Part shown: positions 12,578-12,918 of the stretch, in pieces
Layout of the letters: every line of letters starts with the position of its first letter
Position numbering within the stretch: the first letter of the stretch is position 1
From: Pelagibacteraceae bacterium AG-390-A02
Lineage (GTDB): Bacteria; Pseudomonadota; Alphaproteobacteria; Pelagibacterales; Pelagibacteraceae
Assembly: GCA_003278165.1 (NCBI GenBank)
Contig: QCGU01000013.1
Span: forward strand, 1-33,955
DNA: 33,955 nt
Direction: 5' to 3'
Program-made: the position numbers and the translations under genes
The notes under the pieces: model-generated
What the model was told of the DNA's origin: nothing
The model's database searches: none
What the model saw: only the letters and a program-made list of their open reading frames with translations

Positions 12578-12654
12578 TGGTTGCGGGGGACGGATTTGAA
12601 CCGCCGACCTTCAGGTTATGAGCCTGACGAGCTACCAGACTGCTCCACCCCGCG
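12578..12654 (-). tRNA. Initiator tRNA-fMet (anticodon CAT)
   Basis: 77 bases including an encoded CCA. The sequence begins CGCGGGGTGGAGCAG and shows the initiator hallmark C1:A72 mismatch (the first C faces A before the ACCA end). The D arm is AGC..GCT, the anticodon stem-loop is TCAGG-CTCATAA-CCTGA, and the T arm is GGCGG-TTCAAAT-CCGTC. The anticodon (CAT) lies at 12618-12620. Two of the usual three G:C pairs of the initiator anticodon stem are kept (30:40, 31:39); the 29:41 pair is A:U. It lies 6 bases after the rpsU stop, on the same strand, and is probably processed from an rpsU transcript. Confidence 0.98.
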
Positions 12655-12660
12655 ATATAT

Positions 12661-12855
12661 CTAAATTCTATTCTTGAGTTTATTTAACTTTTTAACTCTT
12701 TTGATGTTTTCTTGAAGAATTCTTTTTTTTTTTTCAGAAGGTTTTTCGTAAGTATTTTTTAATTTTATAACTTTAAAAAAACCATCTCTTTGCAGTTTTC
12801 TCTTTAAAACTCTTAATGCTTGTTCAACATTATTATCTTTAACTTCTATTTTAAT
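12661..12855 (-). CDS. rpsU: 30S ribosomal protein S21, probable ATT start
   Basis: 64 residues if begun at ATT (12853-12855). S21 helps the 30S subunit pair with the mRNA Shine-Dalgarno region during initiation. The core KDNNVEQALRVLKRKLQRDG and YEKPSEKKKR are unmistakable. No ATG or GTG lies at the right place. A TTG at 12865-12867 overlaps the strong GGAGG (12861-12865) and would add four residues, whereas ATT sits 5 bases after GGAGG. Starting there gives (M)KIEVKDNNV, which lines up exactly with the alphaproteobacterial MQVLVRDNNV start. The gene is followed by tRNA-fMet. Identity is near certain; the start codon is inferred. Confidence 0.95.
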   Translation of the reverse strand: MKIEVKDNNVEQALRVLKRKLQRDGFFKVIKLKNTYEKPSEKKKRILQENIKRVKKLNKLKNRI

Positions 12856-12860
12856 AACTA

Positions 12861-12865
12861 CCTCC
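12861..12865 (-). promoter_or_regulatory. Shine-Dalgarno of rpsU that decides the start
   Basis: Read on the minus strand, GGAGG lies 5 bases upstream of an ATT codon that aligns with the first residue of S21 relatives. It is among the most perfect ribosome-binding sites in this window, where most genes have weak or no sites. Its position excludes the upstream TTG, which it overlaps. Confidence 0.75.
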
Positions 12866-12918
12866 AAAAAAAAGGTTTGTTATCACTTTTATTAATTTAT
12901 GTCTATTAGTTTTGTTCA

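Follow-up and report, generated by a model that had tools for sequence, protein, structure and literature searches.

The rpsU locus

The window is the whole stretch of DNA that was analyzed, 33,955 nucleotides from Pelagibacteraceae bacterium AG-390-A02, a member of the SAR11 order. It carries a short minus-strand gene for ribosomal protein bS21, rpsU, followed by a tRNA gene (Table 1). The open frame at 12661-12867 (minus strand) is identified as bS21 by its match to PF01165 (E-value 1.8e-15; 56.8 bits against a cut-off of 27; Pfam). Within it, an ATT sits at the position matching the bS21 N-terminus, and a GGAGG Shine-Dalgarno (SD) core precedes this codon with a spacing of 5 nt. The sole canonical codon ahead of ATT is a TTG four codons upstream, which arises where a T-run meets GGAGG and shares one base with it. 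An earlier sequence-only reading had placed the rpsU start at this ATT, five bases behind GGAGG, and had noted that neither ATG nor GTG is available and that an initiator tRNA lies 6 bases past the gene. The coordinates and the order-wide conservation described below agree with the proposed start; the lack of ATG and GTG is true for this genome, the TTG standing where that reading had put it; and a tRNA-Met(CAT) was found at the place named.

Table 1. Features of the rpsU region and the basis on which each was assigned.
Feature	Position in window	Strand	Basis
tRNA-Met(CAT), initiator type	12578..12654	(-)	6 nt after rpsU stop (stop ends 12661)
rpsU coding sequence from ATT onward, encoding bS21 of 64 aa	12661..12855	(-)	Pfam; comparison with relatives
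ATT start codon, non-canonical, near-cognate	12853..12855	(-)	non-canonical in 201/203 distinct start regions of the order
GGAGG SD core, within GGAGGTA	12861..12865	(-)	predicted -13.3 kcal/mol with the SAR11 16S tail
Upstream TTG chosen in a mechanical ORF listing, unlikely to be the start	12865..12867	(-)	comparative
TGATA, predicted -10 element	12881..12885	(-)	TGNTA conserved in the genus
TAGACA, predicted -35 element, 17-nt spacer	12900..12905	(-)	near invariant in the genus

The tRNA has the CAT anticodon, a C1:A72 mismatch and the upper anticodon-stem pairs A-U, G-C and G-C; an unpaired 1:72 position is the hallmark of initiator tRNAs. On the plus strand, a transaldolase-like gene (PF00923) runs toward the tRNA and stops 6 nt short of its 3′ end (12571-12578), a convergent arrangement with almost no spacer. 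Elsewhere in the window, a pntA RNA motif (RF01810, 90.2 bits) lies at 8935-8996 on the plus strand, just before a gene at 9070 that resembles a transhydrogenase subunit.

A putative promoter precedes rpsU closely. The TGNTA motif is present 27-31 nt ahead of the rpsU start in all 154 distinct loci of the window's genus (g1), while 14% of shuffled sequences have one in the scanned interval. Judging from these promoter elements, the rpsU transcript probably begins about 15 nt before ATT and would hold the T-run, the SD and the start only. A leader of this length argues against a folded operator. It also argues against a start at TTG, which stands 14-18 nt past the predicted -10 element and thus near the 5′ end, and lacks an SD of its own. 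A structured rpsU leader was considered and rejected, as the segment 12880-12790 (minus strand) folds no better than its shuffles (z -0.86). Rfam returned no match at rpsU at gathering scores.

Start codons of rpsU in SAR11 and other Alphaproteobacteria

Copies of rpsU were collected from contigs with Pelagibacteraceae, Pelagibacterales or Candidatus Pelagibacter in the title (80 loci, the best 80 query matches out of more), from other relatives and from chosen regions, with 60 further g1 regions chosen from an E-value-ordered listing. Genus g7 and the weak matches of genomes G139, G231, G111 and G120 were left out, and identical 120-nt stretches were merged to give 203 distinct start regions. 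These are grouped into family f1, which includes g1, and its sister family f2 within the same order. Among 297 genomes of the order, 30 gave no rpsU match, and 9 of those 30 are at least 90% complete.

At the conserved N-terminus of bS21, the start is a near-cognate codon other than AUG, GUG or UUG in 201 of the 203 regions (ATT 161, ATA 34, ATC 4, ACG 2) and ATG in the other 2. The non-canonical rpsU start therefore spans the sampled SAR11 order, far wider than the window. In g1 the count is ATT 146, ATC 3, ACG 2, ATG 2 and ATA 1 (n=154), and the five other f1 genera have ATT in all 15 distinct regions. Family f2 carries ATA in 33 regions and ATC in one (n=34). Its register is one codon longer (MVEVSVKDNN). 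In the copies inspected, ATA is followed by GTT, GTC or GTA, and a start at that codon would likewise be non-canonical. ATT or ATA is almost certainly the true rpsU start in SAR11.

A translation start at a canonical codon further upstream, here the TTG, would instead give bS21 a longer N-terminus. The TTG is the only canonical codon before ATT in this gene and recurs in 136 of the 154 distinct g1 regions. An in-frame ATG further up is found in just 8 of the 203 regions; these are scattered, vary in position (7 codons up in five g1 copies; 11, 12 and 16 codons up in L148, L158 and L159) and all precede the SD. However, 56 of the 203 regions (12 in g1, 12 in other f1 genera and 32 in f2) have no ATG, GTG or TTG from the in-frame stop through the start position, and rpsU as a rule therefore cannot begin at the upstream TTG. 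Locus L068, for instance, has TCG at the TTG position and no canonical codon at all, and L104 has a stop there. In-frame stops lie two or three codons before ATT in both g5 loci, two g6 loci and one g8 locus, and the g5 frame opens just one codon ahead of ATT. The overlap of TTG with GGAGG and its place near the predicted 5′ end also count against it. As a general start of rpsU, an upstream TTG or ATG is ruled out by this comparison, and such a start is very improbable in the window.

The history of the start codon was followed on a tree of 108 f1 loci, from whose construction the start region was excluded. The start changed 6 times, whereas the two codons just before it changed 25 and 26 times, which again weighs against an upstream start, and two mainly-Ile codons within rpsU changed 33 and 23 times. 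Codon 2 (AAA, 7 changes) and codon 3 (Ile, ATA, 5 changes) are equally quiet. The whole initiation region is therefore constrained, and the change count alone cannot single out ATT. More telling is the set of alternatives, ATC, ATA, ACG and ATG, since those other than ATG are all one base away from it. As a control, rpmE (bL31), two genes from rpsU, has ATG in 59/59 distinct copies, a count that omits one spurious pattern match; rpsR (bS18) was left out as a control because its N-terminus is too variable to locate the start. Non-adaptive decay of the start codon might be expected in streamlined genomes, and most of these genomes are small (about 1.0-1.5 Mb). Yet the start changed only 6 times over the 108 loci, its SD is unusually strong and the nearby rpmE keeps ATG throughout, leaving decay the least probable of the explanations considered.

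In E. coli, infC, the gene for IF3, starts with AUU and is under autocontrol, and the sequence-only reading had likened rpsU to it. The likeness is borne out by the conserved near-cognate start of rpsU, and infC of f2 itself opens with ATA in 17/17 loci with no canonical codon earlier in frame (30 infC loci, L191-L220). Both the E. coli gene and SAR11 rpsU thus join a near-cognate start to a component of the initiation machinery; in SAR11, however, the product is bS21, not IF3, and infC in the window's own genus is different. Among the 13 f1 infC loci, GTG directly follows an in-frame stop in 8/8 g1 loci and in one g8 locus, ATG is offered in g5 (2 loci), and the start is probably ATT in g6 (2 loci). 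The infC start differs between groups, and rpsU and infC therefore need not follow one another in start class.

These starts bear on the proposal that AUU or AUA places rpsU under IF3 in the manner of infC, with bS21 not acting as a sensor. Output of rpsU would then drop at high free IF3 and climb when ribosomes outnumber IF3. The near-cognate rpsU codons and the infC starts of f2 and g6 are in keeping with it, and a precedent is offered by the GTC start of sigR, which IF3 represses (PMC5472188). By itself, however, such a gate leaves the exceptional SD in an SD-poor genome unexplained, and the GTG of g1 infC shows that the two genes can differ in start class. It is an unlikely account when taken alone.

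The initiator tRNA is a less constant companion than the start codon. Of the 154 distinct g1 loci, 153 have a tRNA-Met(CAT) downstream of rpsU, 0-8 nt away; so do 12 of 15 loci of other f1 genera, where the distance is 17-43 or 227-246 nt. No such tRNA lies within 400 nt of rpsU in any of the three g6 loci or of the 34 loci of family f2. Elsewhere in the Alphaproteobacteria a tRNA follows rpsU in 0/82 scored loci, with 6 more too short and with 60 of the 90 loci in this check offering less than 150 nt beyond the gene. Joint tuning of rpsU with the initiator tRNA, put forward in the earlier reading, fares poorly here: g6 and f2 keep the non-canonical start without the tRNA, which means that the linkage does not account for that start in general, and the GTG of g1 infC speaks further against joint tuning. 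In four long-gap loci (L146, L149, L150 and L153), a cold-shock-domain gene (MPSGKIKWFNAKKGYGFI and similar) stands between the two, giving the order rpsU-csp-tRNA.

Weak starts of rpsU are also found outside SAR11. Among 97 rpsU loci (95 distinct) of other Alphaproteobacteria, GTG is used in 54, ATG in 21 and TTG in 12, and in the remaining 10 neither possible position holds a canonical codon (ATC 6, ATA 2, CTG 2); three of these ten (L317, L330 and L368) have none back to the in-frame stop. Only a minority of rpsU genes in the class thus begin with ATG, and non-canonical starts turn up repeatedly beyond SAR11. Another 30S protein gene linked to initiation, rpsT (bS20), has a weak start in enterobacteria, UUG (PMC10931766). 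That case is gammaproteobacterial, whereas alphaproteobacterial rpsT has ATG in 27/27 parsed loci of 30 fetched (L265, L267 and L274 were unparsed and left out). No claim is made on Beta- or Gammaproteobacteria, as 17 of the 27 new loci of a phylum search (L284-L299, L308) were missed by the search patterns.

Phages also carry bS21 genes. The viral set comprises L221, L222 and L474-L553, 5 of 80 viral loci being without an anchor. Of 45 distinct anchored viral copies, 32 have ATG, 7 TTG and 6 no start in the scanned interval, although one of these six shows ATG at the contig edge. Many viral SDs are stronger than -12 kcal/mol. The bS21 gene of Pelagibacter phage HTVC008M begins with ATG and that of Mosig with TTG behind AAAGGAGGTAATAA.

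Shine-Dalgarno pairing in SAR11 genomes

Pairing energies were calculated with ViennaRNA duplexfold against the 16S tail GGATTACCTCCTTTCT, found in three f1 genomes (L431-L433). The f2 energies were computed with this f1 tail, as the f2 genome's own tail was not found. The 16S 3′ tail of L431-L433 reads GGAUUACCUCC and its E. coli counterpart GGAUCACCUCC; an extended SD in the L431-L433 genomes would be GGAGGUAAU.

In the window, rpsU reaches -13.3 kcal/mol, compared with -9.6 for the best and a median of -2.6 for 35 other genes (at least 120 aa, with the best ATG within the first 30 codons permitted). In the complete genome G012, rpsU has -12.9 against 371 sampled genes of at least 100 aa, each at its best start and together about 30% of the genome (best -12.6, median -3.1). 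The 146 distinct g1 copies with ATT have a median of -13.3 (range -14.2 to -9.3), and in two loci that retain ATT, L010 and L105, GGGGG replaces GGAGG. Thus, rpsU is an SD outlier in f1. In f2 its SD is strong, at -11.6, but not at the top, three of 373 sampled genes lying at -11.8 or stronger.

The use of SDs in general was gauged by comparing the first ATG of each gene with mock sites 25 nt further upstream. The medians hardly differ, being -1.6 against -1.6 in G012 (370 genes, p 0.79) and -2.0 against -1.5 in G025 (373 genes, p 0.28). A 4-base SD core occurs at 14% of sampled genes compared with 6% and 8% of mock sites. The two sampled genomes are SD-poor, though SDs are not entirely missing from SAR11.

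Other genes that combine an SD with a non-canonical start were sought in 400 kb each of G012 and G025; G012 gave no convincing case, and G025 yielded infC (L472). The scan required an SD-like hexamer and no upstream in-frame canonical codon; weaker cases would escape it. There were three candidates in G012 and four in G025. L439 (plus strand) and L444 have an ATG one or two codons further on, L439 (minus strand) and L464, with frames of 48 and 45 aa, are not convincing, L465 is presumably folD with an ATG further down, and L466 is an apparent fragment at the locus edge.

Two rpsU copies with ATG, L013 and L015, are without an SD (-2.2 and +1.4 kcal/mol). They fall in different well-supported sets (FastTree) and represent two separate changes, although in two genomes only. 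Their pairing of ATG with no SD could equal ATT plus a strong SD in strength, which would suit a static attenuation in which the weak codon fixes a low yield of this very short gene and the SD restores just enough, with no feedback. A precedent is E. coli pcnB, reportedly described by Binns and Masters in 2002. Suboptimal starts, moreover, generally tend to be offset by stronger SDs (PMC5622118). It can be argued, however, that a canonical start with a modest SD could give a fixed yield as well, and that the order-wide retention of both codon and SD, together with the low share of ATG among rpsU starts of the class (21/97), suggests more than a set point. These are arguments from pattern, and static attenuation is about as unlikely as control by IF3 alone. 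Outside SAR11, the SD medians by rpsU codon are -15.3 for ATG, -10.3 for GTG, -9.2 for TTG and -9.1 for non-canonical starts; an offset of weak codons by strong SDs across the class was thus rejected, the trend being the reverse if anything.

A possible feedback on bS21 synthesis

The reading favored here is an SD-driven, start-codon-limited feedback on bS21 in which IF3 would act as a brake, to which we assign a probability of roughly 45%. The poor rpsU codon (AUU in f1, AUA in f2) would be rescued by a strong, close SD on a very short predicted leader. With other genes mostly without an SD, bS21 synthesis would hinge on 30S-SD pairing and on tolerance of a non-AUG codon. In 30S subunits without bS21, the anti-SD may be more accessible and fidelity relaxed, so that rpsU would be translated well; bS21-replete subunits would be policed by IF3 and would translate it poorly. 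The weak codon would thereby add a second filter to the SD, and IF3 is known to act on filters of this kind. The supply of bS21 would then track the number of bS21-less ribosomes. The starting points for this proposal, all read from sequence, are the codon, the SD, the conservation of both, the scarcity of SDs in the genomes and the disappearance of SD and weak codon together in two of them.

An SD outlier in an SD-poor genome favors feedback because it repeats the case of rpsU in Flavobacterium johnsoniae. There, initiation on the rpsU mRNA with its strong SD is faster when the ribosomes lack bS21 (McNutt et al., 2023; PMC9976891), and in Bacteroidia bS21 is described as occluding the anti-SD. 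The two systems share the gene and an SD of exceptional strength against a background of little SD use. Autoregulation of the Bacteroidota type would call for an rpsU SD of about -13 kcal/mol or stronger that is also the strongest of the genome; by a different energy program, rpsU exceeds all genes compared in the window (35) and in G012 (371, about 30% of the genome), while the f2 copy does not top its 373. An otherwise SD-poor background is seen in G012 and G025, with a modest excess in the tail. However, SAR11 belongs to a different phylum and its start is AUU or AUA, whereas the main text of the Flavobacterium paper contains no AUU or GUG (PMC9976891). Moreover, bS21 is not known to occlude the anti-SD in SAR11.

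Several points count against the feedback. In E. coli, bS21 provides SD pairing, according to a review (PMC10931766), and by analogy such a role would act in the opposite direction. The f2 SD is not the strongest of its genome, weak codons outside SAR11 come without stronger SDs, and L010 and L105 carry GGGGG.

To our knowledge, an order-wide start other than AUG, GUG or UUG on a ribosomal protein gene is very unusual. In Staphylococcus aureus, AUU and AUA starts with extended SDs are reported for cvfC1 (AUU), ccpN (AUA) and infC (AUA) (PMC13009471). These have in common with SAR11 rpsU a conserved non-canonical start and an extended SD, but they belong to another phylum and to other genes, with no ribosomal protein among them. 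The SAR11 pattern was not found described in the titles and abstract openings of the open-access papers listed by the searches, subscription papers and preprints being outside their scope, and the available portions of PMC4117421 (Caulobacter) and PMC10783764 hold nothing on rpsU starts.

A broader conjecture is that Alphaproteobacteria share a start-codon-gated homeostasis of bS21, in which the rpsU start (GUG, UUG, AUC, AUA, AUU or CUG) is kept weak and reads the state of the 30S subunit. SAR11 would be the extreme, uniting, in a genome poor in SDs, an IF3-discriminated codon with an autoregulatory SD like that of the Bacteroidota, and phage bS21 would escape this control. We regard this conjecture as doubtful, though slightly less so than control by IF3 alone or static attenuation.

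SAR11, an order of ocean bacteria, ranks with the most abundant groups of bacteria. When gene calling is restricted to ATG, GTG and TTG, the bS21 of the window comes out four residues too long. The pattern suggests that bS21 is metered at the start of its translation. It offers a test of bS21 sensing at initiation beyond the Bacteroidota and bears on why phages of this order carry a bS21 of their own.
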